Shown piece after piece: positions 5,822 through 46,911 of a stretch of DNA of 64,000 nt. A program made the translations under genes and the position numbers. Each line of letters starts with the position of its first letter. Within the stretch, counting starts at the first letter, position 1. The notes beneath the pieces are model-generated. The model searched no databases. It saw only the letters and a list, made by a program, of their open reading frames with translations, and had not been told where the DNA came from. This DNA is from Inediibacterium massiliense (lineage in GTDB: Bacteria; Bacillota; Clostridia; Peptostreptococcales; Thermotaleaceae). The stretch spans positions 1,359,695 through 1,423,694 of the forward strand of contig NZ_LN876587.1 in the NCBI RefSeq assembly GCF_001282725.1. Reading direction: 5' to 3'.

Positions 5822-6901
5822 TCATTTTATCATAAATAAATTTCCTGGCAACTGCTTGATCATATCTTTTAATTCTAGCACTGTAAGAATCCCATTGATT
5901 TCATCTATTCTTAAATTTAATTGTTGACAAATTAATTCTAAATGCATAGGTTGACTTTTGTAAATAGCATAATAAATTTCTTTTTCAATATCACTAAGAT
6001 GTATTAAATTTTTTATTGGATTAGGATCATTTCCAATATTTAGTTCTTCTAATACATCTTCTATATTTGTTACTAATTTTGCTCCTTGCTGAATAAGTCT
6101 ATTGGTTCCTTCACTTAAAGGATGATTAATATTTCCTGGCACTGCAAATACTTCTTTTCCTTGTTCTAATGCAAGCTCTGCACTAATTAAAGACCCACTT
6201 TTGATTCCTGCTTCTACTACAATAAGCCCCTTAGCAATCCCACTAATAATTCTATTTCTAGCAGGAAAATGTTGTGGTAATGGCTCTACATCTACTCCAT
6301 ACTCAGATAATAGTACTCCACTTTTTTCAATTTCTAGCATCAATTTTTGATTTGTCTTAGGATAACATATATTTAGACCACATCCTAATATAGAGATGGT
6401 TCTACCTCCATTCTCTATTGCCCCTTTGTGAGCCATTGTATCTATTCCATAAGCCATTCCACTTACTACGGTAATTTTCCTTTGAGCAAGTTCTTTTGCA
6501 AGATGATAGGCTACATATTTTCCATAAGGTGAGGCTTTTCTAGATCCTACTATGGCTACCGCATTTGTATCTTCATCGGAAAAATTTCCTCTTTTAAAAA
6601 GTAAATAAGGAGCATTATAAATATATTTTAAATCTTTTGGATATTCTTTATCCTTTTTAGTAATAATATCTATTTTATATTTTTCCATTTTTTCTCTCCA
6701 CCGAGAGATCATACATAAATCTTTATTTTCTATTATGTTATGAATCACACTTTTATTTATTCCACTTAGCTTTTTTATATCCTCTATAGAAGCATTATAA
6801 ATATTTTTAGCATTTCCAAATTTTTTGATTAAGTACTCTATAGTTTGATTTCCTACGCCACTTATACTGCGTAACCATACTAAATAATCATTTTCATTCA
6901 T
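5822..6901 (-). CDS. dprA: DNA-processing protein DprA (Smf)
   Basis: DprA loads RecA on incoming single-stranded DNA during transformation. In 359 residues it shows an N-terminal helix-hairpin-helix region, the Rossmann-like core (AIVGSRKASPYG, VSGMAYGIDTMAHKGA, GSLISAELALEQGKEVFAVPG) and a C-terminal winged-helix tail. It starts 4 bases after the comM stop, so both are in one operon, and the ribosome binding site GGGTGGG lies in the comM end. Confidence 0.97.
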   Translation of the reverse strand: MNENDYLVWLRSISGVGNQTIEYLIKKFGNAKNIYNASIEDIKKLSGINKSVIHNIIENKDLCMISRWREKMEKYKIDIITKKDKEYPKDLKYIYNAPYLLFKRGNFSDEDTNAVAIVGSRKASPYGKYVAYHLAKELAQRKITVVSGMAYGIDTMAHKGAIENGGRTISILGCGLNICYPKTNQKLMLEIEKSGVLLSEYGVDVEPLPQHFPARNRIISGIAKGLIVVEAGIKSGSLISAELALEQGKEVFAVPGNINHPLSEGTNRLIQQGAKLVTNIEDVLEELNIGNDPNPIKNLIHLSDIEKEIYYAIYKSQPMHLELICQQLNLRIDEINGILTVLELKDMIKQLPGNLFMIK

Positions 6902-6904
6902 ATA

Positions 6905-8434
6905 TTACCCACCCCAAAACTTTCGATCTAAGCCTCTATATTGAATAGCCTCTGCAATATGGTTTGTTTTTATATTTTGACTTCCCTCCAAATCTGCGAT
7001 CGTACGACTTAATTTAATAATACGAGTATAAGCTCTAGCACTTAATCCTAACTTATGGAATGCATTTTCCATTAATTTTTTCTCCTGCTCTCCTAGTTTG
7101 CAATACTTTTTCATTTGATTCCCATTTAATTGAGAATTAAACAAAATATGATCTTTTTTATATCTTTCTAATTGGTTTTGTCTTGCTTGTTCTACACTTG
7201 TTCTCATTTGAGTAGAATTTTTCCCTTCTCTTTCTTTTGATAGCTCTTCATAAGAAATAGGAGAAACTTCTATGTGCATATCTATTCGATCTAATAGCGG
7301 TCCTGAAATTTTTGATAAATATCTTCTTATTTGTGTAGGTGTACAAGTACATTCATGAGATGAATCTCCATAATAACCACAAGGGCATGGATTCATACTA
7401 GCTAATAAAATAAACTTAGATGGATATGTAAAATTGCCATATAGTCTTGCAATAGTAACCTCTTCATCTTCAATGGGTTGGCGTAACATTTCCAAAACTC
7501 TTCTTTCAAATTCAGGAAGTTCGTCTAAAAATAAAACACCATAATGAGATAGTGAAACTTCTCCAGGTTTGGGTTTTCTTCCTCCACCTATTAAAGCTGT
7601 ACTTGAAATGGTATGATGAGGTGATCTAAAAGGTCTTTTCTGAATTAAAGATAAATGATTAGAAAGCTCCCCTGCCACACTATAAATTTTAGTGACCTCT
7701 AAACACTCTTCATAGGTCATTTCAGGAAGAATACTAGGAAAACATCTTGCTAACATAGTCTTTCCTGATCCAGGAGGCCCTATCATCATAATATTGTGTC
7801 CTCCTGCTGCTGCAATCTCAAAAGCTCTTTTTACTAGTTCTTGGCCTCGTACATTACCAAAATCTTCTTTTGGATTATATTCATTTGTTATGTGAACATT
7901 GGCTTTATAAGGATCAATAGGCATTTCTCCCTTGAGATATTCAATTACATTTGATAAATGATCACAAGGATAAATCTCTACATCTTCAATCATAGCTCCT
8001 TCTTCAGCATTTTCTATAGGTAAAATGATTTTTTTAATACCTTGATTTCTAATCCCAATCACAAGAGGAAGAGCTCCTGTTATTTTATTTAATTTTCCAT
8101 TTAAAGATAATTCTCCAATAAAAGCAAATTTGTCTATATCTGCATTCTCTAATTGTTCAGATGCTTGTAAAATTCCTAAAGCCATAGATAAATCAAAATG
8201 TGTTCCTTCTTTTTTTGTATTGGCTGGAGCTAAGTTTATGGTGATCCTTTTTAGAGGAAAATCAAAGCCTGAATTTTTAATAGCTGCTCTAATTCTCTCT
8301 TTTGATTCCTTTACAGCTACATCTGGAAGTCCTACAATATTCAAAGCAGGAAGACCATTAGAAATATCTACCTCTACTTCTGTAATATCTCCATCCAAAC
8401 CATTTAAAACACAGCTGTAAACTCTTGATAACAA
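6905..8434 (-). CDS. comM: ComM/YifB family AAA+ ATPase (Mg-chelatase-like)
   Basis: ComM is a hexameric helicase that promotes branch migration in natural transformation. Walker A (MIGPPGSGKTML) and Walker B (VLFLDELPEF) are intact and the Mg-chelatase C-terminal domain is complete (FWGG end). An ATG at 8455 lacks a ribosome binding site, whereas the TTG at 8434 lies 7 bases after GAGGAGG, so I use that (509 residues). A degraded copy of an internal part (about 7424-7523) is found beside the serine recombinase near 30 kb, hinting that comM is an integration target. Confidence 0.95.
   Translation of the reverse strand: MLSRVYSCVLNGLDGDITEVEVDISNGLPALNIVGLPDVAVKESKERIRAAIKNSGFDFPLKRITINLAPANTKKEGTHFDLSMALGILQASEQLENADIDKFAFIGELSLNGKLNKITGALPLVIGIRNQGIKKIILPIENAEEGAMIEDVEIYPCDHLSNVIEYLKGEMPIDPYKANVHITNEYNPKEDFGNVRGQELVKRAFEIAAAGGHNIMMIGPPGSGKTMLARCFPSILPEMTYEECLEVTKIYSVAGELSNHLSLIQKRPFRSPHHTISSTALIGGGRKPKPGEVSLSHYGVLFLDELPEFERRVLEMLRQPIEDEEVTIARLYGNFTYPSKFILLASMNPCPCGYYGDSSHECTCTPTQIRRYLSKISGPLLDRIDMHIEVSPISYEELSKEREGKNSTQMRTSVEQARQNQLERYKKDHILFNSQLNGNQMKKYCKLGEQEKKLMENAFHKLGLSARAYTRIIKLSRTIADLEGSQNIKTNHIAEAIQYRGLDRKFWGG
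7424..7523. repeat. comM internal segment duplicated at about 29977-30076
   Basis: About 100 bp of comM coding sequence, around the Walker B to sensor region, recurs with scattered mismatches directly after the serine recombinase relic. Both copies have the same orientation. The shared core includes TTGCAATAGTAACCTCTTCA. It is a candidate attachment site (attB-like). Confidence 0.65.
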
Positions 8435-8484
8435 TTTTAAGCCTCCTCGATTCATTAAATATACTGTTAAGTATTACATATTCA

Positions 8485-8838: not shown

Positions 8839-9000
8839 AAAAAATTACTTCCTTAATATATTCTCCCCTTTGATGTATTTAAAACCATATAGTGTTATAC
8901 ATTTTTTGTAAAAAACCCTTTATCTATTCATTTTTTCTGAATATTTAATTATCTTCACGTTGTATTTTTTTCTATATCTAAAAAATCCTTTTAAAAACTC
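8830..9000. repeat. yraN upstream region, duplicated at about 30071-30235
   Basis: The stretch that begins at the yraN start (AAAAATTACTTC) and runs through TTCTCCCCTTTGATGTATTT to the TATCTAAAAAAT motif recurs near 30.1 kb with clear similarity. A shorter third piece (TATTCTCCCCTTTGATGTAT) is near 34736. No gene is seen in this gap. Confidence 0.7.
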
Positions 9001-9071: not shown

Positions 9072-9896
9072 TTAACAGTCGCAAGGACAATGGCATGGAC
9101 AATCAGATATAGGTTCTACTGCACCAATCGCAACTTGTCTTTTTTGAAGTATCTTCAGGGTAATAAATAAAACCATCTTTTCTTCAATTTGTCTAAATGC
9201 TCTTTCTTCAAAAGGCATTTTTCCTCTGCTACAATCTGTATAGTTAAGAATTTCGTCAAACTCTACAATTCTTGCCTTAATCAATTCACAGAAAGGAAGT
9301 TCATTAAAATGTTCTTCACTTATTTGATTAAATTCACGAAGATCTCCTGATAACAATTTATCTTTAGATCCAAATCCGTCATTATTTAAAGCTTCTTCTC
9401 TAAAATACTCAAACTCTGCTGCTCTATTACATTTTGGTGGAAGTGGTTCAATTCCATTAAATGAAATTGGAGTTGTGCAACTAAATGGTACATCTACTGT
9501 ACAATGTTTGATATCTCCACAAAATCCTTCTTCATTGGAACATTTTCTTGTAGTATATTCAATGTTTTTTCTTACAAATCCTTTTATAAAAAGCATATTA
9601 GTATTTTGTAAAAGTAAACATTGAGTTACTTTTACACGCTTTTTAATATTTTTAATTTCCCATGCAGGCTCTGGTAGGGTAATAAAAGAATCCACATTTA
9701 CCTTTACAGTTAATTCAGCAAGTACTACAGGTATTTTAGCAATAGAACCTGTTGTTAGAGAACTAATATCAACAGGTGTATTCACACATTCTTCTGAAGT
9801 TCCTCCAGATACCTCTACACAATTTCCTGTGCAACCTCTTATTTGTACTTGATTTTTTTGTAAATTTTGTATTGGATTATATTTATTCCATGACAT
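9072..9896 (-). CDS. CsxC-like spore exosporium protein
   Basis: The 274-residue protein resembles the CsxC family of clostridial exosporium proteins: a PVVLAELTVKVNVDS entry strand, IKKRVKVTQCLLL, LFIKGFVRKNIEY and GDIKHCTVDVPF, the pattern also seen in SPOCS/DUF3794-like repeats. It is cysteine-rich with a CPCHCPCDC end, as in cross-linked spore-surface proteins. The start has AAGGAGG 9 bases upstream and a strong terminator follows. Expression would be expected in the mother cell late in sporulation, but I cannot identify the promoter. The family call is from recognition, not a search. Confidence 0.75.
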   Translation of the reverse strand: MSWNKYNPIQNLQKNQVQIRGCTGNCVEVSGGTSEECVNTPVDISSLTTGSIAKIPVVLAELTVKVNVDSFITLPEPAWEIKNIKKRVKVTQCLLLQNTNMLFIKGFVRKNIEYTTRKCSNEEGFCGDIKHCTVDVPFSCTTPISFNGIEPLPPKCNRAAEFEYFREEALNNDGFGSKDKLLSGDLREFNQISEEHFNELPFCELIKARIVEFDEILNYTDCSRGKMPFEERAFRQIEEKMVLFITLKILQKRQVAIGAVEPISDCPCHCPCDC

Positions 9897-10041
9897 TATT
9901 GTTTACCTCCTTATTAGATTCTAATTGATATAAGTTATCCCTTGTCCTGTATCTTGGTATATATTATGCAGATTGTCCCATTAGGTGATTTTACATTTAT
10001 AAATTTAATCCGTATAAAATCTTTATTTTCGTCCATCACAT

Positions 10042-10069
10042 GAAAGGCACCCATTCCTGAGTGCCTTTC
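10042..10069 (-). terminator. Terminator of the 40-residue small gene
   Basis: Stem GAAAGGCAC / GTGCCTTTC with a 10-base loop. A nearly identical hairpin lies at 42731-42753 after another minus-strand gene, so this terminator is itself a dispersed repeat. Confidence 0.8.
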
Positions 10070-10190
10070 ACCTGTACATGCAGTATTTGCGAGATACCCC
10101 TGTCCTTATAAAATTTTCTATATCATCTACAATAAATTGTTGTGTTTCTATTTCAATACATAAATCTTTGTAATTATCTATACAAGTCAT
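10068..10190 (-). CDS. Small hypothetical protein (40 aa)
   Basis: Short frame MTCIDNYKDLCIEIETQQ...KYCMYR proposed because GGGGG lies 6 bases before the ATG and a strong terminator begins at the stop codon. I do not recognise a family. Confidence 0.5.
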   Translation of the reverse strand: MTCIDNYKDLCIEIETQQFIVDDIENFIRTGVSRKYCMYR

Positions 10191-10205
10191 TGAATTCCCC
10201 CTTTG

Positions 10206-10345
10206 TTCCTAGACACCAGGTATATCTAGGAGTTAGTATTTATGTGGTGTGAGTATATTTTTTATTCCTAGGATTGCTATCTTCCCTAGCCTTATGTCTA
10301 ATTATTATCCAATTTATACAAATTATGTTATAATATAGTGAAATT
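10206..10345. repeat. Non-coding segment duplicated at about 30266-30430
   Basis: Begins with an inverted repeat (TCCTAGA ... TCTAGGA) and contains GATTGCTATCTTC. A diverged copy in the same orientation is near 30.3 kb; there too the block is followed by TTAATTTAGGAGG and a start codon. It completes the parallel between the 7.4-10.4 kb flank and the 29.98-30.45 kb relic. Confidence 0.65.
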
Positions 10346-10364
10346 ATATTAATTTAGGAGGGAT

Positions 10365-10445
10365 ATGATGGAACTTAACGGAGACATAGGTGGATATTTG
10401 CAAATATTATTAACTCTTTTATTTAAGCTTTTACAATTACTATAA
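10365..10445 (+). CDS. Small hydrophobic peptide (26 aa)
   Basis: ATGATG start directly after TTAGGAGGGAT, coding MMELNGDIGGYLQILLTLLF and a further KLLQLL, one likely membrane helix. TATAAT-like boxes lie about 30 bases upstream (10331-10336 region). Two similar single-helix peptides occur at 24299 and 30889. Function unknown; type I toxin-like or regulatory peptide is possible. Confidence 0.5.
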   Translation: MMELNGDIGGYLQILLTLLFKLLQLL

Positions 10446-10706
10446 TACTAATATTTTTATGCTTAGTATTTAAAATTCTATTTATTATTTTATTTTTCTC
10501 AATATCAGAATTTGGTACTTAGATAAGATTTAAACATCATGATGAAAGCAAAGCATTTTTTTATTATAATTATAGAACTAGCTCTCACCATAATGTTCTT
10601 TTGTTCTTTTTTTGAGAATCGCTAATATTCAGTTCAATAGATATTACAGATTTTTCATTTTTTGTTACAATAAATTATTGATTAATATTTTCATACGGAG
10701 GTTCTT
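10446..10706. other. Non-coding gap
   Basis: AT-rich, with no supported gene. GGAGG lies just before the next start. Confidence 0.5.
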
Positions 10707-11842: not shown

Positions 11843-12076
11843 TTATGCTATTGTTTTATTTTTTATTGAGTTAAACTCAACATTCTTTTGAAAAAAAATA
11901 TCCATGACATCTGCTTTTAGTTCTTTTGCTATTCGTACTTTAATTGAGTCAGGTGGCTGAATTTCATTTTTTTCATATCTACTTATTGTTGATTTATCTT
12001 TACCTATACGATTCCCTAATGCTTGTTGAGATAATTCTGCCTGCTCTCTATAAAATTTGATTTTATTATAAATCAT
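11843..12076 (-). CDS. XRE family transcriptional regulator (77 aa)
   Basis: Small DNA-binding protein that is almost only a Cro/CI helix-turn-helix: KIKFYREQAELSQQALGNRI, KDKSTISRYEKNEIQPPD. It is divergent from the two-domain XRE gene at 12271; the 195-base gap holds repeated palindromes that look like operators. This is the Cro/CI layout of a phage-type switch. Confidence 0.85.
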   Translation of the reverse strand: MIYNKIKFYREQAELSQQALGNRIGKDKSTISRYEKNEIQPPDSIKVRIAKELKADVMDIFFQKNVEFNSIKNKTIA

Positions 12077-12270: not shown

Positions 12271-12960
12271 GTGGTGAAGTTGATTAATTTTGGTAGTTTT
12301 TTAAAAGAAATAAGAGAAAATAAAGAACCTAAAGTATCGATGCGTGAATTAGCAAGAAGAACAAATGTTGATCCATCATATATTAGTAGAATAGAAAAAG
12401 GTGAATATATTCCATCTCGCGATGTTGTAAAAAATATTGCAAAAGCACTTGGAGAAAATTCTGATGAATTTTTATTACATGCTGGTTATGTTCCTCTAGA
12501 AGAATTAATCCAAAGAACTGGAAGAATAAACAGAATCAATAGTGAATTATCACTAAAGACATTAGGAGAAAAATTGAAATTTTTAAGAGAAAGAAGTAAA
12601 TTAACTCAAACTGAACTCGCTAAAAAATTTACAAATAAAAACTTTAATATAACAAGTGCAGCCATATCTCAATATGAATCAAACAAACGCATTCCTGATA
12701 CAGATATTCTTGCTATGTATGCTAATCTATTTAATGTAACTATTGATTGGATTTATGGTCGTACAGATATCAGCTCATCATCCGATCAAATTGATGAAGC
12801 TATTAAAGATGCTCCTGAACTACAAGACTTTTGGAAAGAAATGAAAGAAAGAGAAAGTCTACAACTTCTTTTTAAACAAGTTAAAAACCTCTCTGATAAA
12901 GACGTTAAACAAGTAATGAGAATTATCAAGGCTATTGAAGATGAGGAAGAAAATGAGTAG
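12271..12960 (+). CDS. Two-domain XRE family regulator (229 aa)
   Basis: Contains two helix-turn-helix domains in tandem: residues about 8-65 (LKEIRENKEP..SMRELARRTN.DPSYISRIEKG) and about 90-150 (LKFLRERSKLTQTELAKKF, AISQYESNKRIPD), then a helical tail. Starts GTG 12271, GTG 12274 or TTG 12280 are possible; the TTG has the best spacing from GGAG. The next gene encodes an ImmA/IrrE-like peptidase, a common partner that cleaves such repressors. Confidence 0.85.
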   Translation: MVKLINFGSFLKEIRENKEPKVSMRELARRTNVDPSYISRIEKGEYIPSRDVVKNIAKALGENSDEFLLHAGYVPLEELIQRTGRINRINSELSLKTLGEKLKFLRERSKLTQTELAKKFTNKNFNITSAAISQYESNKRIPDTDILAMYANLFNVTIDWIYGRTDISSSSDQIDEAIKDAPELQDFWKEMKERESLQLLFKQVKNLSDKDVKQVMRIIKAIEDEEENE

Positions 12961-13003
12961 ATAATAGGATATGATAGCACTTGGCACAAAGGGGGCAATC
13001 ATA

Positions 13004-13327
13004 ATGATGAATATTCTAGAATCTGCAATTTTGAAAGGTTTAAAATCAAAAGAGATACCTTTTCATGATGTTATGAATGCTTTTAATATCAGAACTAGCA
13101 TTGCGTTTAATCTTAGTACAAGCATTCAAGGTTTTGTTTATGTAAGTAAGAAAAGCAATTATCATATTATCTTAAACGGAAATATTAATTATGAAACCCA
13201 ATGCAGGGTTTTTCTTCATGAGATCAAGCATATTATTAAGGATTTACCTCGTATGACTTATATCATTGGACTGGATATGCAGAATGAAAAGTTTGAAATT
13301 GAAGCAGATAATTTAAAATTAGGATAG
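13004..13327 (+). CDS. ImmA/IrrE family metallopeptidase
   Basis: Zinc peptidase family that inactivates phage/ICE repressors. The 107 residues from the ATG behind GGGGGCAATCATA contain HEIKH (HExxH zinc motif) and FEIEADNL, whose glutamate is the likely third ligand. It follows the two-domain XRE gene by 43 bases, so the pair is a derepression module as in ICEBs1 (ImmR/ImmA). Confidence 0.85.
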   Translation: MMNILESAILKGLKSKEIPFHDVMNAFNIRTSIAFNLSTSIQGFVYVSKKSNYHIILNGNINYETQCRVFLHEIKHIIKDLPRMTYIIGLDMQNEKFEIEADNLKLG

Positions 13328-13338
13328 AAATAAAAAGA

Positions 13339-13364
13339 ACTCAAATTTGATTTGAGTATTTTTT
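13339..13364 (+). terminator. Terminator after the ImmA-like gene
   Basis: Stem ACTCAAAT / ATTTGAGT with a 3-base loop and a T6 run. Confidence 0.9.
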
Positions 13365-13513: not shown

Positions 13514-14428
13514 ATGAAATTTGAAGAACTTATGAACTTTTATAATAATAAATATAGTATACGATTTAAATTTAATGAATTAAATAAATCAATATCGATT
13601 GATATAGATAGAAAAAAATATTACGACAAGTGGATGGAAAAATATTCAAATTTATTTAGAAGTAAAAATTCAAATATACACATGGAATGGAGTATTCGAA
13701 ATAGTAAAGCAATGAAAGAAATCTACCATTCAGCAACATTTTATATTGAAAGTAAAAAAGCATTAGAAAATGGTATGTTAGGTTCATTTTATTTTCTATG
13801 TTATTATTCATTATTTCATGCCATGTTATCAACTCTTTACTATGATATTACTCAAAATATTTCTAATTTAATAAATATAAATCATTCCAAAGTATTAAAT
13901 TGTTTTATTAGTAACTTCAATAATAAAAATAATCCTATTTTTCCTTATGATATAAAACAGTATTTTTTGAATTTAAAATTTATGAGAGAATCTTATTCAT
14001 ATTGTATGCCACTAAACGAAATGTTTCAACCTATTTTAAAAGAACATAATCCAATTGAAACCCTTGAAAAATATTTAATACTATGCTATCAAATTTCAAG
14101 TTTTCATTCTTGTCTTTTATCTAAAAATGTTAATGGATCACTAGATATAAACGGAAATTTGCGTAATTCATTTTCTAAAATGTTTTATAAAGTAAATGGT
14201 ACAGTTAATCCCAATGATGGAAAACTCTATTTAGATCCACTAAATGAAAATGAATTCTACGAAATAAGAAAATATCATTGTTGGATAGAACCATTTCCTA
14301 TAGAATTAGACCATTTTTTTGATGAATTCAGAGGTTATAATGTTGATAATCCTATATACGATGTTGATAAATATTTAGAAATTGGAACTAAAGCTCATAG
14401 ATTTGTTTATGATTCATTGCTATATTGA
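13514..14428 (+). CDS. Hypothetical protein, possibly HEPN-like (304 aa)
   Basis: Starts ATG after AGGAGGATAAA. The middle part (IYHSATFYIESKKALENG, then GSFYFLCYYSLFHAMLSTLYYD) looks like the paired helices of HEPN-type proteins, but I see no clear RxxxxH ribonuclease motif. Rich in Asn, Tyr and Ile. It lies between a phage-type regulator module and a GIY-YIG-like gene in the same direction, near an ABC-3C defence operon, so a conflict role is plausible but unproven. Confidence 0.6.
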   Translation: MKFEELMNFYNNKYSIRFKFNELNKSISIDIDRKKYYDKWMEKYSNLFRSKNSNIHMEWSIRNSKAMKEIYHSATFYIESKKALENGMLGSFYFLCYYSLFHAMLSTLYYDITQNISNLININHSKVLNCFISNFNNKNNPIFPYDIKQYFLNLKFMRESYSYCMPLNEMFQPILKEHNPIETLEKYLILCYQISSFHSCLLSKNVNGSLDINGNLRNSFSKMFYKVNGTVNPNDGKLYLDPLNENEFYEIRKYHCWIEPFPIELDHFFDEFRGYNVDNPIYDVDKYLEIGTKAHRFVYDSLLY

Positions 14429-14612
14429 AAAAATAAATTAGACATGGTGTATCTATACTAATTAAGCTAATAATTAAAAGAAGAAACCTAATTTTAAAGT
14501 ATGTAAATGTCCAATATATGTATTGAGATAGAATTAAATACATTTAATAAAGGACTTTTTTGAATGATTTTAAAAAAGTTTAAATTCAAATTTAATTTAC
14601 TAGGAGAGAAAT

Positions 14613-15314
14613 ATGAAAAATAGAATGTTAAAACCTTGGATTAAAGGCAATGAGAGCATAACACCCCAAAATTTTATTTCAAATAATGAACCGGATTTTG
14701 AATTAGGTGCATTTATTGGAATCGATGAATATGTAGATTTATATAAAGCGAATGAATTTGATAGTGGAAATTTAGAAACATCTTGGAATAAAACAAGAAA
14801 ATATATTGAAGAAGCACTAGAAATTGTAAATATTGATTTAGAAGAAGTGAGTGATATTAGATTAGATAATGAGGAAAAGCACTTGATATTGCATAAGCTG
14901 GGAGAACCTCCTTTATGTAGTTACAACATTTACATTATAACTATTTACAATGAGGCAGAAGAACGAATTGTATATATTGGTAAAACTGATGCTAAAAATA
15001 GCAGATTTTCAAATGGTCATTTAGCTGCATTAAAATTACATAACCCTATTTATGATTCATATAAAAAAAGAGTATATTTTGGGACACTAGTATTTTTAGA
15101 TAAAGAAAAAAACTACTTACCTTTGGAATATATAGCACCCTTAGATTTAGCTAAGAAAATATTATCAGACACAGAAGCTATACTAATTAGTTATTTTAAG
15201 CCAGAACTTAATAAGCAGTTACTAAATGCAAGTAGCATAACTATGAAAACAATGTTTCACATTCAAAACTTTACAGATACTTATCCATTTTTAAATGACC
15301 TATTTGTAGGATAA
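14613..15314 (+). CDS. GIY-YIG-like nuclease domain protein (233 aa)
   Basis: The C-terminal half carries YNIYIITIYNEA..ERIVYIGKTD, RFSNGH, then EAILISYFKPELNKQL: the two short tyrosine strands, YIGKT, a following arginine and a late glutamate of the GIY-YIG fold. The first strand is YIITI rather than GIYxI, so activity is uncertain. The N-terminal 100 residues are unrecognised. Clear ribosome binding site AGGAGAG. Same direction as the 304-aa gene 184 bases upstream. Confidence 0.65.
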   Translation: MKNRMLKPWIKGNESITPQNFISNNEPDFELGAFIGIDEYVDLYKANEFDSGNLETSWNKTRKYIEEALEIVNIDLEEVSDIRLDNEEKHLILHKLGEPPLCSYNIYIITIYNEAEERIVYIGKTDAKNSRFSNGHLAALKLHNPIYDSYKKRVYFGTLVFLDKEKNYLPLEYIAPLDLAKKILSDTEAILISYFKPELNKQLLNASSITMKTMFHIQNFTDTYPFLNDLFVG

Positions 15315-15423: not shown

Positions 15424-15467
15424 AAAAACCCCTGAGATTAGATGTATTCTGATCTCAGGGGGTTTTT
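15424..15467. terminator. Strong bidirectional terminator
   Basis: Long stem (AAAAACCCCTGAGAT / ATCTCAGGGGGTTTTT) that can end both the GIY-YIG gene and the convergent ABC-3C operon. A near copy (CCCTGAGATTAGAT...) lies at 34848-34886 with similar flank (CTATTTGG). Confidence 0.9.
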
Positions 15468-15571: not shown

Positions 15572-17395
15572 CTACTCTAACAGTCCATCTCTTCCTTCTT
15601 TATGCCCATTTGTAAATTCGATTACATGGATACTTCCCTTATCAATTTTAGGAGGCTCTTTATTCTCTAATACTATAATTTGTATTCCAGATTTTAAAGC
15701 TAATTCCTTAAAGAAATTATCTGCAATAACATCTGCTATGATTTCGTTACTCTTAACTTTAGAACGTTCTTTCAATGATAGCAAAGGAGAATCTAAAACT
15801 ACAAATCCATTATGTAAGAAATCTTTGAAGGTACAATATTCAAGAAGTGAAACTACCATTGCTGCAGCTAGTATTGCTCGATGTCCCTTACCATTAGATA
15901 TTCTTAGTTTATTGTCAAGAGATATATCTAATGTGTTCTCATTGAATTCACAAATATTATAAGCTGGATATAGCCAAGCTGTCAAATTTGAATCCAAATA
16001 TTTAATATACTCATCTATACAATTTAATTTTATAGAACTATCATAATTGCATTTTTCAACTGGAGCTACTAATTGCCTATCCAATTCAGCCATTTGAGTA
16101 GCTATTTTTTTTAGTAACAATTGCTTTTGAGTAATAGTATTCTTTAACAATAGTTTCTCTTCCATTGCTTCTATTTCTATGTGAACGGGATCTAATTCAT
16201 TATCTATTATTATTTCAATGTTGTTCTGTATTTCATTATATTTATTTTGCATAGTAGTAATAGAATCACTAAGTAGTCCAATTTTTTTTTGATGATATCC
16301 AATTGATTGCTTAATATCTTTTATCTGTAAATGAATTTTTGTTAATTCAGCTTCATAAGCTTCTTTTTTATAGCCATCAAAAAAAGATGTGCTGTCGCAT
16401 TTTTCAGCAAATTCAGAACCACATGTAGGACATTTTATATCAACAAGCTGATCCAAATAGAAATTACCTTCTTGTATAAATTGTAAGCGTTCCCTGTCAA
16501 TAAATAGATTTTCTATATATAAGTTAAATCTATTTATAATCTCTTGTGAAAATAGCTTTTCTGTTTTCAGCTTACGTTGTTCAGTTATAATTAATGACTG
16601 TTCCTCACGTAATCGAAGGATTTCTGTATTTAAAACTGAAATCCTCTCCTGCAAATCATTCAATTCCTGTTTTGGGTCATAATCTAGATCACTACTAATA
16701 TCATCAGAGAGCTCATCAATTTCGTTCAACAATTCTTGTTTTAATACTAACAAGCTGTTTATACTTCCACTTAATCTCGTCTTTATTACTTCCTTTTTTT
16801 CGACCGGATTACATTTACTATCATCTTCATTCTGAAGATAAAGCTTAAAGGCTGATCTTTCTTCAGTTGCTGTAGTTAAAACACCACTTAAAAATGGAGA
16901 CCACTCTGCACTAATTATCTTGGCTTCATCTAAAATTGAAACTAACATTAATTTATTATAAGTCAAATTTATTTTATCACCATTTGCATTTTTTCTTAAT
17001 TGAAAACCAGTTCCATCCAGTATTGATAGTAAAAATTCAGAAATAGTCCTTTTTTTCTTAGTTGCATTTTTAGGCCTACAGTATTCTACTGAATTAGTAT
17101 CAATAAAACAAACTATTATATCTTTAGAGTTATCTCTTATATCTCTTGTAATCCTATACTCCCCGCTTTTGGTTTCTATAGTTATTGATATAGTACTATA
17201 ACCTATTAACTCTGGTATTCCATTTAATTTTCTTGTATGATCTTTTCCAAAAACATGTTGGATGGAAAGTAAAATTAATGATTTTCCAGTATTTGATTCT
17301 CCATGAATTACATTTAAACCATCTTTAAGCGTAATTGATGAGTGCTTTGTTTTACCATCATAATCTATTTCTCTAATCTGTAATCTTGATTTCAT
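15572..17395 (-). CDS. SMC/Rad50-like ATPase of an ABC-3C (Lamassu-like) system
   Basis: 607 residues. Walker A GESNTGKS at about residue 35, long coiled coil, a central zinc-hook CPTCG (about residue 318), second coiled coil, then an ABC-type end with GKGHRAILAAAMVV (signature-like) and FVVLDSPLL (Walker B/D). These proteins sense foreign DNA structures and control an effector nuclease. Its start overlaps the middle-component frame by 23 bases. The order effector, small middle protein, SMC matches Lamassu (lmuA-lmuC-lmuB) and ABC-three-component operons. Complete reading frame. Confidence 0.85.
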   Translation of the reverse strand: MKSRLQIREIDYDGKTKHSSITLKDGLNVIHGESNTGKSLILLSIQHVFGKDHTRKLNGIPELIGYSTISITIETKSGEYRITRDIRDNSKDIIVCFIDTNSVEYCRPKNATKKKRTISEFLLSILDGTGFQLRKNANGDKINLTYNKLMLVSILDEAKIISAEWSPFLSGVLTTATEERSAFKLYLQNEDDSKCNPVEKKEVIKTRLSGSINSLLVLKQELLNEIDELSDDISSDLDYDPKQELNDLQERISVLNTEILRLREEQSLIITEQRKLKTEKLFSQEIINRFNLYIENLFIDRERLQFIQEGNFYLDQLVDIKCPTCGSEFAEKCDSTSFFDGYKKEAYEAELTKIHLQIKDIKQSIGYHQKKIGLLSDSITTMQNKYNEIQNNIEIIIDNELDPVHIEIEAMEEKLLLKNTITQKQLLLKKIATQMAELDRQLVAPVEKCNYDSSIKLNCIDEYIKYLDSNLTAWLYPAYNICEFNENTLDISLDNKLRISNGKGHRAILAAAMVVSLLEYCTFKDFLHNGFVVLDSPLLSLKERSKVKSNEIIADVIADNFFKELALKSGIQIIVLENKEPPKIDKGSIHVIEFTNGHKEGRDGLLE

Positions 17396-17894
17396 CTAAA
17401 CCACCTCTTAATAGTGCTTCATTTGGATATTCATTTGCAGTTAATTTTATGCTACTTTTAAAACTCAAATCCAATTCTTGTATACTTTTTTTCCCCAAGT
17501 AACAATTAGCATATTCAATATTCTTAATTAGTTTTTGTGAATAAGTAGTATTAAATAAATTAACAATATTCTTGCTATACGGATTAGCTTTATATTCAAT
17601 TCCCGTTTCAGTATAAGCAACCTCTATCAAATCCTTTTTAATTAGTATGTTTATGGCCTTCTTTATTATTTCTTTTTTAGCTAAAATCTCTCCACCTTTG
17701 TATGGATTTTCTTTATGAAGACTTTTATATCATTTATCGAAATCATGCAATCGTGTTGATACATAATCATAATATGCAAGTTTAGCAACATCAAAAGTTT
17801 TATCCTCATTTTTGACCATTATAAAAAGTATTCTTAATGATAATTCAAATGGTGAATTAAGAAATTGTATTTTTGAATTTATTATTTTATCCAT
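17373..17894 (-). pseudogene. ABC-3C middle component (LmuC-like) with in-frame TGA
   Basis: A 173-codon frame starting MDKIINSKIQFLNSPFEL, with LAYYDYVSTRLHDFDK, a TGA at 17730-17732, then YKSLHKENPYKGGEILAKKE and KKAINILIKKDLIEV. The pattern (small winged-helix-like protein with a YYDY and a PY..GE motif) fits middle components of ABC-3C systems. The frame is otherwise perfect and overlaps its neighbours on both sides (13 and 23 bases), so the TGA is a single nonsense codon, most simply TGG to TGA at a tryptophan. Confidence 0.75.
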
Positions 17895-18949
17895 TTTATT
17901 TTCCCTTCATTAACTAATCTATGACACATTCCCTTTTTATCATGCGGTGTTAGTATTGTTCTTAAAGGATACGCATCTAAATTCATTGTTGTACTTCTTT
18001 CTAAAGAATCGTTTAATTTTTTATAGCCATTCCTAAACGGATCAGTAACTATATCACTTATGCCCTTATTTATAAGTTCTTCAATATCGTAAATAGGTTT
18101 GAAAGAAGGGAGATTATCCCGAATCATATTTCTGTATGATTCAATACTATAAAAATAAGTTCTTTGTATTTGAAAATGTTCAAGATATTTATTATTAATT
18201 TCATTTGGTCTCTCATACTGTACATTATCTAGTTCAGAGTAAACTTTACATAATTCCTGTATATAAACATTTTCTCTATTTTCTATAACACTAGGTACTA
18301 TAGTATCTTCTCTATTAAATTTTACAAATGATGCTCCCAGATAATAATGAGCGTATTTTGAAACAGAAAATTCATGTATGAGTTCCTGAGGAGTTATTTC
18401 TTCAACTATCGAAAAATCAAAATTGCTAATATATTTTTCAAACCCTTTTAATTTTTTTATATATTCATTGTTAAACTTATAATTATTTGAATTCATTGTT
18501 TTAACCAATTCATTATTAAATTTTGTATAATTATTTCCTTCAAGAAATGAGGTTCTAAGTATATTCGAACATCCTTTTGGGCTTACAATATAATATTTTT
18601 GAGGTGATATATAATGACCTTTAAAAACATGATAACAAACTTTTAATAATTCTTTAGCAATAATAGAATAACTTATCTGTAATTCATAATGTTTACATTG
18701 ATAAATATCCATTAAAGTTTCATTATTATAGAAACACACTATGTCACGGCCACCATCATTGGCTCCAGCATTTTTTAATATTTTTTCATATATATCTTTT
18801 TTACAATCAAATAACCATACTTCTGTCATCTCCTCATATTTACTAGGATCCATTATCTTAATTCTATCTTGCGGAGTTATTGAGGGATCATAATATAAAT
18901 CTTTTAAAGATAGATTAGTAGGAAGCGTTATAGGTATAAAATTTAACAC
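17882..18949 (-). CDS. ABC-3C effector with PD-(D/E)XK nuclease domain
   Basis: 355 residues from the GTG at 18949, which has GGGGG 9 bases upstream and starts MLNFIPITLP; a longer frame to 19051 lacks such a site. N-terminal domain: SITPQDRIKIMDPSKYEEMT, then NAGANDGGRDIVCFY and YQCKHYE, the Asp and Gln-x-Lys of a Mrr-like restriction fold. The C-terminal 200 residues should be the part that binds the SMC/middle complex. First gene of the three-gene operon. Confidence 0.8.
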   Translation of the reverse strand: MLNFIPITLPTNLSLKDLYYDPSITPQDRIKIMDPSKYEEMTEVWLFDCKKDIYEKILKNAGANDGGRDIVCFYNNETLMDIYQCKHYELQISYSIIAKELLKVCYHVFKGHYISPQKYYIVSPKGCSNILRTSFLEGNNYTKFNNELVKTMNSNNYKFNNEYIKKLKGFEKYISNFDFSIVEEITPQELIHEFSVSKYAHYYLGASFVKFNREDTIVPSVIENRENVYIQELCKVYSELDNVQYERPNEINNKYLEHFQIQRTYFYSIESYRNMIRDNLPSFKPIYDIEELINKGISDIVTDPFRNGYKKLNDSLERSTTMNLDAYPLRTILTPHDKKGMCHRLVNEGKIKWIK

Positions 18950-19107
18950 AATATAGTTCCCCCTTAAAAGTATAGATATTACTATTCTCTCTAATTTTAT
19001 TTTAAATGTAATTTTCTGATTATAGCTTATCATTTTTCCATCATTACTCAACTTCTTTACTTTTTAAACATTAGTCACCAAATTACATGCCTATAAATAT
19101 AAACCCA

Positions 19108-20738: not shown

Positions 20739-22664
20739 TTATCTAGCATTGTCAAAATCAATCACTGCATCTTCAATAATATCATATATGTAATTACTAC
20801 TATCCGAGTAATCCATGTCTTCTGCATCTATATTATATATATGATATTTTTTTATTATATTCAAAATTTCATCTTTACACCATTCAAAATCAAAGTCATC
20901 AAACATACTTTGAAATACATAATCAACAATCTCATCATAATAGTATTCATCACCTATACCATAATTTTGAAATGCATCGTCCAGATAATCTTCAATATTA
21001 TCTTCTATCCAAGAAGCCCACACACTTTCTCCAATATCCTTTAATACATCTTCAATTTGATTTTGAATAAACATATCCATTCTTTTAAAATCAAATCCTT
21101 TTTCGTCTTTTCTTATAGTGAGCTCAATTAAACTCCATATATTTTCTTTATCCGCAAATCGAAATAAACGTTTAACATATTTGTCATCATTCAAAATTTC
21201 TCTCAAATTATAGTTTAATTTAATTATGTTTAAAATATGTTTACTATCAGGGTAAAAAAGAACAAATGATTCATCTTCTAAAATATTCTTCATAGCCTTA
21301 ATAACTATTGGTTCATGCCTTTGATCATCAATTTTGAATTCATATAAATATTTTAAGTATTGTATGGATATATTGTTCCTAAAATGGATTGGCATGCTAT
21401 TGCTCATCTCATATGTAATAGGTAATACTTTAAAATTCAAAATGGGAGGCTGCTTACAATTGTTCTCCAGTAATATTAAATCTCGAATATATTTTTTATT
21501 AATATCTAATTTTTCAATTTGCTCAAAGTAAATAGCTGTTTTAATAATTTCTTTTCTATCACGTAGAGAAAGTTTATCTTCTAAATACTCCAATAAAGAA
21601 GGATGAATAAACTCTATTTTGTTATCATCAATATTAATTAATGATTCAATACGTTTATGAATATCTGGTAATGAGACATCTGGAAGTATATCTAATTGCT
21701 GTATATAATTTTCGAAACATTCATCCACAATATCTTGTTTAATAAAATTATTTGACAATGAATAAAGTATATTAACATACTGGCGAGAAGATTCATCTAG
21801 TGCTTTTATCTCTTTCTCTCATACATCTTTTGGATTGTTTAAATATCTTAAAAATATTGTTTCGTAATCAGATATATTTACTTTAGAACATACTTTAGTA
21901 GCTTCCTTAATAATAAGTGGGCTAAAATTTGAATGGTCAAGAATATTTTCTATTATTTTATTAGTCCAAAGTTTTTGCTCCAATAACTCTTTCATTTTAT
22001 TAAGTATTTTATTTTTGTCACAATACTTAATTAATATATTTATTTTATCTTCATTCCTTGTCCATTTTTCTAAATCAAAAATTGTAACATTGGATTGTAT
22101 CAATTTATTAAATTTCTCACTATACACTTTGGCATCCTGAAAGATCGTTTTTCTAGAATTAAAAATAAACTTCTTATTTGAATAAAATTCAATATTTTTT
22201 AACAACTCCTCCAACTTATCAAAATAAAATTTAGAATTATTCAATTTTGTATCTCCTAAAAAGTCATTAAAAATCCAAACTTCTTTTTCTTCAGTCTTTT
22301 GATCCATTAGATAACAAATATTTTGAAGTTCATTTTCATTAGGACACCTAATAAATTTAACTTTATAATTTTCAATGAAATTGTTAGCAACCATAATTGA
22401 TGTATCTGTTTTTCCTATCCCAGAACATCCTATAAACATCACCGCATTTGAATGTTGTAATTCAGCTATAGCTCTCTCATATTGTAATGTTTCTGTAAAA
22501 TATTTTTTTAATTTCTCTATTTTATTAGTAATAAATGAATCACTGTACTGTTTCATCGATTCACTACCAAATTTGAATATATAGTTATTGTTAATTCTAC
22601 TAATACCTCCAGAAATCAAAATATTGTCATCTCTCATTTTATTATTACTTATGTCGTGTTCCAT
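20739..22664 (-). pseudogene. nSTAND-type ATPase with in-frame TGA
   Basis: One 641-codon frame starting MEHDISNNKMRDDN (GGAGG 8 bases upstream). Residues about 65-90 hold Walker A (FIGCSGIGKTDTS) and WIFNDFLG is the Walker B typical of nSTAND3 NTPases. TGA at 21819-21821 splits it after YLNNPKDV; the frame resumes at once with EKEIKALDESSRQYVNILYSLS, as in family members where Trp-Glu follows. The helical C-terminal half would be the sensor. Such ATPases usually trigger cell death on phage detection. Probably a nonsense mutant. Confidence 0.75.
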
Positions 22665-22833: not shown

Positions 22834-22920
22834 TATATAAACTCTCCCATATTCATTAATTTAAAAAATATTTTTGTTGACTTTAGAATCTCAATTATAT
22901 CAATCAACAATATACATATA

Positions 22921-23046
22921 CATTCTAAACGATTTATGTCGTAAAGTTTGTCATTTTGTGACGAATAAAAGAAATATTTAATTCGGAATGGTGCTTCTAC
23001 TATTTTTATAAATTTTTGATTGATGAATGGAAAATGTTGTATAATA
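22921..23046 (+). promoter_or_regulatory. S+P repeat, copy 1 (stem-loop plus promoter)
   Basis: Contains the S hairpin TTTGTCA / TGACGAA with a 5-base loop, the TATTTAATT linker, and the P promoter module: TTGATT 18 bases before TATAAT (AATGGAAAATGTTGTATAAT). The 98-aa gene starts 60 bases later. Confidence 0.8.
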
Positions 23047-23105
23047 TAAAAAATGATTTCTAATGTAATGTATCATAGTAAATATTGAATACTAGGAGGA
23101 ATCAA

Positions 23106-28809: not shown

Positions 28810-28915
28810 CTGTTATCTCCCCTTCAACTTAGTAATTATTTTCCATTTTGCTTATATTCCTCACTCCACTATGCTACAATATAATCAAACAAATGTTCTT
28901 TAGGAGGGAAACTTT

Positions 28916-30035
28916 ATGCCTACAGCTGCAATTTACGCAAGAAAATCAAAAGCAACTGAAAAAGGCGAATCTATCGAAAATCAAATATCTCGTGGTAAAG
29001 CCTTATGCCAGTTGCGAGGATGGGATTATATTATCTATGATGACTTTGATATCTCAGGAAAAACTCTTGAAAGACCTGGATTCGAAAAAATAAAGAAGCA
29101 AATCTAATTAAAGACTTTTATACATGGTATCTTGAAGATGATGGTTCTGTAAGAAGTTGTGTATCTAAAGCAAATCAGCTAGGATATAAAACTAAGAATA
29201 ATGCCTATTGGTCCCATAATCAAATGTCTAGAATGTTGCAAAATCCTCTTTACTGTATAGCTGATACCATAGCTTATGATTATTTTAAAAATAATACTGA
29301 TGTTCAAATTGTAAATGAAAAACATGAATTTGATGGAAAGCATGGCCTAATGTTTTATAATCTTAGAAAACCACATAAGAAAACTTCAAGAGAACGTGAG
29401 GAATCAGAATGGATTCTTACTATAGGAGAGCATAAAGGAATTATTACCGGGGAAATGTATAAAAAAGTACAAAAAAAGCTAAATTCAAACAAATATAAAG
29501 CTCCCCGCCATGGACAAAGCATAAAATCCCCTTTTACTGGCCTAGTTCAATGTGGTCGTTGTAAATCATCTATGTCGATTTTTAGTTCTCCTAGAGATTC
29601 AAATAATAAATCAAAAGGATATTACCATTATTTCCGATGTATTACCAGAGAACAAAAATCAAAAATACTGTGTGATAATTACAACATTAGAGCCGATTTA
29701 CTTGAGTATAAAATCGTATCTTATATTAAAAGTTTATGTAATAACAAAGCCTTTGTTTTAAAACTTCTAGACAGTTCCAATGATGATTTGGAAAATAAAC
29801 GTGTGCCTCTGATTGCTAAAAGAAATAAAATTCAATCTAGTATAGATGGAATCGAAAAAGAAATGAATAATTTAGTTATAGCATTGGGAAAAGGTACTTT
29901 ACCAGAAATAATGATTCAGAAAAGATTTAAAGAATTAGAAAACCAAAAAAAAAAGAATTCTTAAAAGAAATTAATGAATATGTAAAGTTCCCATATAGTT
30001 TTGCAATAGTAACCTCTTCATCTTCAATGGGCTGA
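28916..30035 (+). pseudogene. Large serine recombinase, internally deleted and frameshifted
   Basis: Site-specific integrase relic. The N-terminal piece (to 29107) has the catalytic serine in AAIYARKSKATEKGESIENQ and stops after RPGFEKI; the rest of the catalytic domain is missing. The recombinase domain resumes in another frame (LIKDFYTWYLEDDGSVR, WSHNQMSRMLQNPLY) and continues to the zinc ribbon (LVQCGRCKSSMS ... YYHYFRC.TRE..) and coiled coil. At a run of ten A bases (29945-29954) the frame is lost again; one extra A would extend it through EFLKEINEYV into comM-like DNA, ending at 30035. It cannot be active as is. Confidence 0.85.
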
Positions 30036-30450
30036 CGTAACATTTCCAAAACTCTCCTTTCAAATTCAGAAAGTTCATAAAAAATTACTTCTTTAATATA
30101 TATTCTCCCCTTTGATGTATTTAAAAATATATAGTTTTATACATTTTTTGTAAAAAGCTCTTTATCTATTCATTTTTTCTGAATATTTAATTATTTTTAC
30201 ATTGTATTTTTTCTATATCTAAAAAATTATTATTACAAAACACCTATTTATGCAAATCATTGATTCCTAGACATGAGATATATCAAGGAATTTGTATTTA
30301 TGGTGTAAGCATATTTTTATTTCTGAAATTGCTATCTTCTCTAACCTTATAATTAATGCATCTTCTTAAAATGCATTATTAACTTGACTGTTATAATTTA
30401 CCATGGTACTATTATTCTGAATTTTTATTAATTTAGGAGGTATTTATATG
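29977..30450. repeat. Decayed copy of the comM-yraN-10.3 kb flank (displaced att region)
   Basis: In order and same orientation as 7424-10365: a comM piece (29977-30076), the yraN start/upstream piece (30071-30235), and the 10206-10345 piece (30266-30440), with the material between deleted. It begins inside the recombinase 3' end, as an attachment site would. Confidence 0.7.
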
Positions 30451-32400: not shown

Positions 32401-32517
32401 ACCTATTTCATTGTAAATTTTGTCATTTTGTGACGAAAAAAGAAATATTTAATTAGGAGTGATACTTAAACTGTTTTTATAAATCTTTGATTGGCGAATG
32501 GAAAATGTTGTATAATG
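32401..32517 (+). promoter_or_regulatory. S+P repeat, copy 2
   Basis: S hairpin TTTGTCA / TGACGAA (as in copy 1), TATTTAATTAGGAGT, then TTGATT-18-TATAAT. The 63-aa gene starts about 80 bases later. Confidence 0.8.
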
Positions 32518-32595
32518 ATAAGAAACACAAATTAAAAATATTGATCATTAGTTCAATAGATAAGAATTTTTTATTGAAAAGAAGGGAGATTCAAA

Positions 32596-38244: not shown

Positions 38245-38429
38245 ATTCTCCTCCTATTTAGCTTTTATTTAAATTACATACCAAGATGATTAGATTTGTA
38301 TGTAATATCTAGTATCTTAAATCTGTAATAGCATATCTTTATTCAAAAGGAATAACCACTGCTAGAAAAAGACATCACTAACAATGCTGTAATTTAAATA
38401 TATCCTTTTCCATCTTAACCCATTATCTC
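38245..38429. other. Gap
   Basis: Divergent upstream region between the MORN gene and the next cassette; nothing recognised. Confidence 0.4.
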
Positions 38430-38531
38430 TGCAAATTTTGTCGTTTCATGGCGAAAAAAATATTTAATCTGGAATGTTTCTTCTTCTGTTTTTGTAAATC
38501 TTTGATAGGTGTATGGAAAATGTTGTATAAT
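38430..38531 (+). promoter_or_regulatory. S+P repeat, copy 4
   Basis: S hairpin with several changed positions that still pair (TTTGTCG / TGGCGAA counting G-T pairs), then TTGATA-18-TATAAT. The zinc-ribbon gene starts 68 bases later. Confidence 0.75.
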
Positions 38532-38598
38532 AAGATATTGTGAAAGAATGATCATTTATATCACACTCAAACAAACGAAATTTTAGGAGGATCTAAAT

Positions 38599-40356: not shown

Positions 40357-40560
40357 ACTTCACTATGCTACAATATAATCAAACATGCGTTCTTTAAAAG
40401 GAAATTTCTATGCCTACATCTGCAATTTATGTAATAAATCAAGAGTAACTGAAAAAGGCGAATTCAAATATCTCACGGTAAAGCCTTATGTCCGTTATGA
40501 AGATGGGATTATATTATCTATGATAACTTTGACTCTCAAAAGACCGTGATTCGAAAAGAG
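40357..40560 (+). pseudogene. Second serine-recombinase N-terminal fragment
   Basis: Repeats the promoter (CACTATGCTACAATATAATC) and first about 60 codons of the recombinase at 28863-29090, with small deletions that remove the catalytic serine region (reads MPTSAIYVINQE). It ends GATTCGAAAA as in RPGFEK. Confidence 0.8.
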
Positions 40561-44718: not shown

Positions 44719-44834
44719 TTTGACTCTCCTTGTTTGACAATTCTTATCTTAAGTAAAAGATAGCTTTTTTATAACACTCATTATCTTAAATCTTACATCC
44801 CTAGCAACAGATATGATCTTTAGATACATTCATA

Positions 44835-44932
44835 AATATTCTAAACGATTCTTGTCGTAAGTTTTGTCATTTTGTGACGAAAATATAAGCTGTTTAGGAA
44901 TAGTGCTTCAACTATCTTTGTAAATCTTTTGC
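44835..44932 (+). repeat. S element copy 6
   Basis: CTAAACGATTCTTGTCGTAA, TTTGTCATTTTGTGACGAAA, GTGCTTCAACTATCTTTGTA. The -10 is missing. It lies between two minus-strand genes. Confidence 0.75.
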
Positions 44933-46770: not shown

Positions 46771-46911
46771 TTTTATCATTTTATGATGAAAAGAAGAAAT
46801 ATTTAATTAGGAATGGTGCTTCAACTATTTTGATATGTTTTTAGATAAAAAATACATTAACTGAAGTTTATATAAATCTTTGATTGTCAAATGGAAAATG
46901 TTGTATAATAG
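46771..46911 (+). promoter_or_regulatory. S+P repeat, copy 7
   Basis: S hairpin with a base-pair change (TTTATCA / TGATGAA), GAATGGTGCTTCAACTATTT, a 45-base insertion, then TTGATT-18-TATAAT. Confidence 0.8.

Follow-up and report, generated by a model that had tools for sequence, protein, structure and literature searches.

The window analysed here is a stretch of 64,000 nucleotides, and all window coordinates count from its first letter. It carries two neighbouring genes of the same direction, referred to as gene 1 and gene 2 (Table 1), which a first-pass annotation had placed between a phage-type switch and an ABC-3C operon and had proposed as a possible two-gene system. Both open reading frames were found on the plus strand, separated by a gap of 184 bp. 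In 500 shuffled versions of the region no stop-free run was longer than 196 aa, and since both frames exceed this they are considered real genes. The phage-type switch is present as a pair of HTH and ImmA-like genes 5' of gene 1, and the ABC-3C operon downstream of gene 2 proved to be of the Lamassu type, with LmuA, LmuB and LmuC. A small Xre-type HTH gene on the minus strand (11843-12076) is divergent to the double-HTH gene at 12271 and completes the phage-like switch.

The pair had also been described as sharing one strong terminator, a description that holds in part. A strong hairpin does follow gene 2 (14 bp with a T tract, -26.4 kcal/mol, z -6.6), no strong terminator was seen between gene 1 and gene 2, and the 184-bp gap makes a common transcript possible. 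However, the minus strand of the hairpin folds as well (-21.9 kcal/mol) and, given this folding and its position between convergent genes, the hairpin may serve the Lamassu operon equally.

Table 1. Coordinates of the gene pair, of its neighbours and of the island boundaries within the window
Feature	Position	Strand	Description
Double HTH phage-type repressor	12271..12960	+	HTH_3 E=6e-27
ImmA/IrrE-like metalloprotease, short	12971..13327	+	phrog_87 metallo-protease E=1.5e-4; HExxH as HEIKH
AT-rich terminator-like hairpin	13338..13364	+	Separates HTH/ImmA pair from gene 1; -7.7 kcal/mol, z -2.9
Gene 1	13514..14428	+	304-aa orphan protein; AGGAGG ribosome-binding site
Gene 2	14613..15314	+	233-aa predicted stand-alone GIY-YIG nuclease, PHROG 16890 family; AGGAGA ribosome-binding site
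Predicted C-terminal GIY-YIG catalytic domain of gene 2 (residues 104-203)	14922..15221	+	Y107, Y121-G123, K124, R131, H136, E188, N200
Hairpin terminator	15429..15461	+	Between gene 2 and convergent Lamassu operon; possibly bidirectional
LmuB, SMC-like ATPase of Lamassu	15572..17395	-	LmuB E=3e-111
lmuC	17373..17882	-	LmuC/MC2 matches; in-frame TGA at 17732
LmuA, Mrr-like nuclease with ABC-3C C-terminal domain CTD6	17882..19051	-	LmuA E=1.7e-73; PF20282 E=5.8e-30
comM segment	7406..7533		Direct repeat at 29962-30087, 88% identity; brackets island
yraN-flank segment	8834..8986		Direct repeat at 30074-30227, 92% identity; brackets island
Broken large serine recombinase, right island end	28915..29965	+	Recombinase and Zn-ribbon domains; internal loss and frameshift

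Downstream of comM-yraN lies an island of about 21 kb to which both gene 1 and gene 2 belong and which is missing from the sister species (genome G399). The comM-yraN region of that genome is collinear with the window to position 8955, and the next common stretch to the right is a recombinase N-terminus at 28846. Besides the gene pair, the island carries Lamassu and an nSTAND gene. The in-frame TGA in lmuC is matched by another at 21821 (minus strand) that splits the nSTAND3 gene, and owing to these codons both systems may be inactive (or mis-sequenced). Recoding of the two codons was considered, and they were taken as signs of decay instead; on this basis the island appears to be decaying, with gene 1 and gene 2 still open. 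The comM-yraN site looks like an insertion hotspot in the genus. Two repeated elements were observed in addition: a serine-recombinase N-terminal region occurs at 28863-29049 and again at 40357-40532, approximately 11 kb further right, which suggests more than one recombinase insertion, and a dispersed repeat of approximately 100 bp is present in at least five copies (22912-23053, 32413-32525, 38423-38532, 44828-44929 and 46772-46910).

Gene 2 and its predicted nuclease domain

By sequence, gene 2 is a member of PHROG 16890, a phage family with no previously assigned function. The phrog_16890 profile matches it over nearly its full length (E=4.9e-29), all of its close homologues match the same family, and no difference between gene 2 and the family was noted. 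The GIY-YIG-like nuclease recognised in the first pass is confirmed as a predicted fold by three partly independent lines of evidence (profile-profile comparison, structural model and motif), none of which is overwhelming alone. Single-sequence Pfam matches of gene 2 and its homologues to GIY-YIG are sub-threshold (E 0.0015-0.17), with PF01541 at E=0.0015-0.0086 in the homologues. When a six-sequence profile of gene 2 was compared by hhalign with the UvrC GIY-YIG domains of related genomes, the alignment reached 61% probability and a score of 32.2, whereas 60 column shuffles scored at most 20.3; the same profile gave no alignment with a YhbQ-type GIY-YIG set. A structural model built from four sequences (pLDDT 74) was best matched by UvrC GIY-YIG, which filled all six best rows in VIA-align at a modest Z of 3.5-3.9 (rmsd 3.0, 81 aligned), the next row having a Z of 2.3. 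Foldseek with the model alone gave no significant fold match, its hits being ATP-grasp proteins at poor TM-scores.

The catalytic positions are kept. The GIY and YIG tyrosines correspond to Y107 and Y121-I-G123, on model strands 106-112 and 117-124, and the catalytic arginine, metal-binding glutamate and asparagine follow in order as R131, E188 and N200, the last two being paired with UvrC by hhalign. Y107, Y121, G123, R131, E188 and N200 are invariant among the six aligned sequences, and K124 and H136 are also kept in the family alignment.

Defences that consist of one GIY-YIG gene are already established, with SNIPE (PMC13190303) and CMoRE (PMC12923530) as examples, and gene 2 was compared with both. 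SNIPE (PD-Lambda-1) is a membrane-bound GIY-YIG nuclease with proven cutting of phage DNA at injection (Nature 2026, PMC13190303), and it resembles gene 2 in being encoded by one gene and in having its GIY-YIG domain at the C-terminus. Gene 2, however, is half the length of SNIPE and has no DUF4041, no match to the PD-Lambda-1 profile and no transmembrane segment (its 19-residue hydropathy peaks at 0.91); on the absence of DUF4041, of the profile match and of a hydrophobic segment, its identification as SNIPE was rejected. CMoRE (PD-T4-3), a type IV modification-dependent restriction enzyme of the GIY-YIG type (Nat Commun 2026, PMC12923530), shares with gene 2 a two-part nuclease encoded by one gene, in which a GIY-YIG domain closest to UvrC is joined to a second domain of unknown fold. 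The CMoRE nuclease is N-terminal, bears a GIYxY-YIG motif and is followed by a C-terminal sensing domain, whereas the putative nuclease of gene 2 is C-terminal and its extra tyrosine lies three residues before Y107 (YxxY). These differences in domain order and tyrosine spacing led us to reject gene 2 as CMoRE as well; PADLOC gave no match for gene 2, from a library that may be without a PD-T4-3 model.

Gene 1 and its relation to gene 2

Gene 1 encodes a mostly helical protein for which the 371 genomes of the class yielded one true homologue, located in a prophage of genome G646 and conserved over residues of about 60-200. This prophage reading frame is 48-50% identical to gene 1 over residues 19-209 and a C-terminal piece, and since that piece is in another frame the homologue is either broken or misassembled. 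It is bordered on one side by a late-regulator-like gene and on the other by an integrase fragment, beyond which lie HNH-like and terminase genes, and the same prophage is listed in IMG/VR as a viral contig. Weaker genome matches (E 0.0005-0.1) were chance-like in the frames that could be read and were discarded.

For the proposal that gene 1 has a HEPN-like helical middle, support is marginal. PF05168 was detected in the homologue only, over residues 69-109 (E=0.048, 14.3 bits, against a curated cut-off of 22 bits), and the conserved FYFLCYYSLFHAMLSTLY and INHSKV stretches presumably resemble UPF0332-type HEPN, a resemblance that we treat as a lead. This match and the defence-rich neighbourhood are consistent with gene 1 acting alone, as a toxin of the HEPN RNase type or as an effector of abortive infection, a role that would be compatible with the explanation favoured below for gene 2. 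We nevertheless regard it as improbable. Searches of gene 1 for HEPN in Pfam, NCBIfam, PHROGs, PADLOC and PDB sequences gave nothing significant, pieces of gene 1 gave no HEPN match even at E=10, and hhalign comparison with the MNT-type HEPN proteins of related genomes, on which the proposal failed, was no better than shuffles. Furthermore, gene 1 has no conserved Rx4-6H motif, its sole candidate (R49-x6-H56) not being kept in the homologue, and AlphaFold prediction from the single sequence was unusable (pLDDT 35). Gene 1 is possibly a degenerate HEPN-like fold, and it is best explained as a separate, very rare phage-borne accessory gene.

The proposal of a two-gene system was not sustained by the distribution of the two families, whose homologues were never adjacent in any case found. 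A gene 1 profile that recovered the G646 prophage as a positive control found nothing in six whole records with gene 2 homologues (0/6). Conversely, a gene 2 profile found nothing in genome G646 or its prophage, the single carrier of a gene 1 homologue, and local tblastn over all fetched loci detected no co-occurrence. A search of 398 genomes of the phylum detected the two families nowhere but in the genome of the window itself; one further match, to gene 1, was of chance level. Searches of phage collections gave no homologue of either gene, and scans of genome contigs with the single proteins, a method that reaches close relatives only, likewise found nothing. A real two-gene module, of very recent origin or very rare and consisting of a helical or HEPN-like protein and a nuclease, would agree with the common strand, the 184-bp gap and the single strong terminator placed after gene 2 and not between the genes. 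Such a module is nonetheless very unlikely: co-occurrence was seen in no record, each family occurs alone on phage elements, and tight coupling is made less plausible by the long gap and by the strong ribosome-binding site that each gene has of its own. This evidence is strong but not final, because gene 1 is sampled by a single homologue. The two genes look like independent cargo that came to lie side by side in an island by chance. Their assignment to a defence or mobile-element setting was right, and a vague two-gene candidate is in this way replaced by a testable single-gene candidate and an orphan phage gene.

Genomic settings and probable role of gene 2

Homologues of gene 2, at 32-44% identity, were found in eight plasmids (six from Klebsiella, one from Alkalihalophilus and a partial one from Priestia) and in three IMG/VR viral contigs, in about six independent settings; the sample is small because the family is rare. 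Known defence genes adjoin several of these copies. In Alkalihalophilus the homologue lies directly after the DolA-DolB genes of Dodola, in one prophage it adjoins a DpnII-MboI-type nuclease at the prophage end, and gene 2 in the window is convergent with Lamassu. On less close inspection, no known defence gene was recognised near the homologue in a viral contig of 160 kb, another of 13.6 kb and the Priestia plasmid. The Alkalihalophilus locus (L004) also contains a DUF6615 gene at 9809-10642, after the gene 2 homologue and downstream of Dodola.

The Klebsiella carriers are phage-plasmids that we label SSU5-like on the basis of gene content, size, IncFIB replicon and the literature. In these plasmids the homologue occupies a sharply bounded slot, which at about 6817-8450 of locus L005 contains a DUF2513 gene alongside the homologue and lies between a repB-side gene and a metallophosphoesterase gene, with equivalents in L072-L076. 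The left border of the slot is nearly identical across the plasmids and the right border is one of two. Plasmids that are otherwise 96-98% identical have other genes in the slot, in some a DUF4041 gene and in others a GNAT gene or a further single gene. On its profile match (E=4e-206) the DUF4041 gene is SNIPE (PD-Lambda-1), which is present on 119 plasmid records. Besides SNIPE, the GNAT and the gene 2 homologue, the occupants include an HMG-box-like protein of 292 aa and an unknown protein of 486 aa. The SSU5-like slot represents a defence-cargo site at which SNIPE, a known system, and uncharacterised genes take each other's place. Deletion of an SSU5-like plasmid, which may or may not carry the gene 2 homologue, from a Klebsiella strain increased both phage burst and plasmid uptake (PMC8969562).

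The explanation that we favour, with somewhat better than even confidence, is that a decayed mobile or defence island, inserted next to comM-yraN, carries gene 1 and gene 2 as independent passengers, and that gene 2 is a single-gene GIY-YIG nuclease, most likely protective against phages or plasmids. The slot exchange with SNIPE and the Dodola, DpnII-MboI-type and Lamassu neighbours make defence the best guess, and from this context the function of gene 2 is probably anti-phage or anti-plasmid. By analogy with the superfamily, the GIY-YIG domain would cut DNA through Y107, Y121, R131, E188 and N200 with a divalent metal, and the N-terminal domain of roughly 100 residues may decide which DNA is cut, or when. 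The family appears to pass between prophages, phage-plasmids and plasmids, and its products would guard the host cell or the resident element against incoming phages and plasmids, much as phages are countered by SNIPE and CMoRE.

Gene 2 might alternatively be an endonuclease of phage homing or of interference between phages, like SegB, I-TevI or ICP1 Odn, that spreads its own gene or attacks competing elements and became chromosomal only by way of a mobile element. Homologues in phage and phage-plasmid genomes are contexts that also fit this role, and GIY-YIG is a classic homing-endonuclease domain; in I-TevI-type homing enzymes, however, this domain is N-terminal and in gene 2 it is C-terminal. 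ICP1 Odn (Gp88), which has a T5orf172/GIY-YIG domain, is a nuclease that the phage directs against a satellite (eLife 2021, 10:e68339, PMC8263062), and like gene 2 it is a stand-alone nuclease of the GIY-YIG superfamily on mobile elements. In the nuclease domain, the part compared here, Odn, which also has a RepA-like DNA-binding domain, keeps the arginine and glutamate but not the helix histidine or tyrosine, whereas gene 2 has H136. In a homing test based on sequence alone, the homologue was found to occupy the phage-plasmid cargo slot; that the same slot holds the proven defence gene SNIPE, and that defence operons immediately adjoin the copies in the chromosome and in Alkalihalophilus, speaks against homing or interference, which we judge rather unlikely.

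Within the preferred explanation of gene 2 as a protective nuclease, we tentatively suggest, at slightly less than even likelihood, that PHROG 16890 is an undescribed family of single-gene GIY-YIG immune nucleases distinct from SNIPE and CMoRE. Such a family would circulate among Bacillota and Enterobacterales on prophages and phage-plasmids and swap with SNIPE in the slot, with a new N-terminal sensor picking the target. A phage family of unknown function thereby gains a functional hypothesis. By their interchange with SNIPE in the same slot, the remaining occupants of the SSU5-like site are likewise defence candidates.
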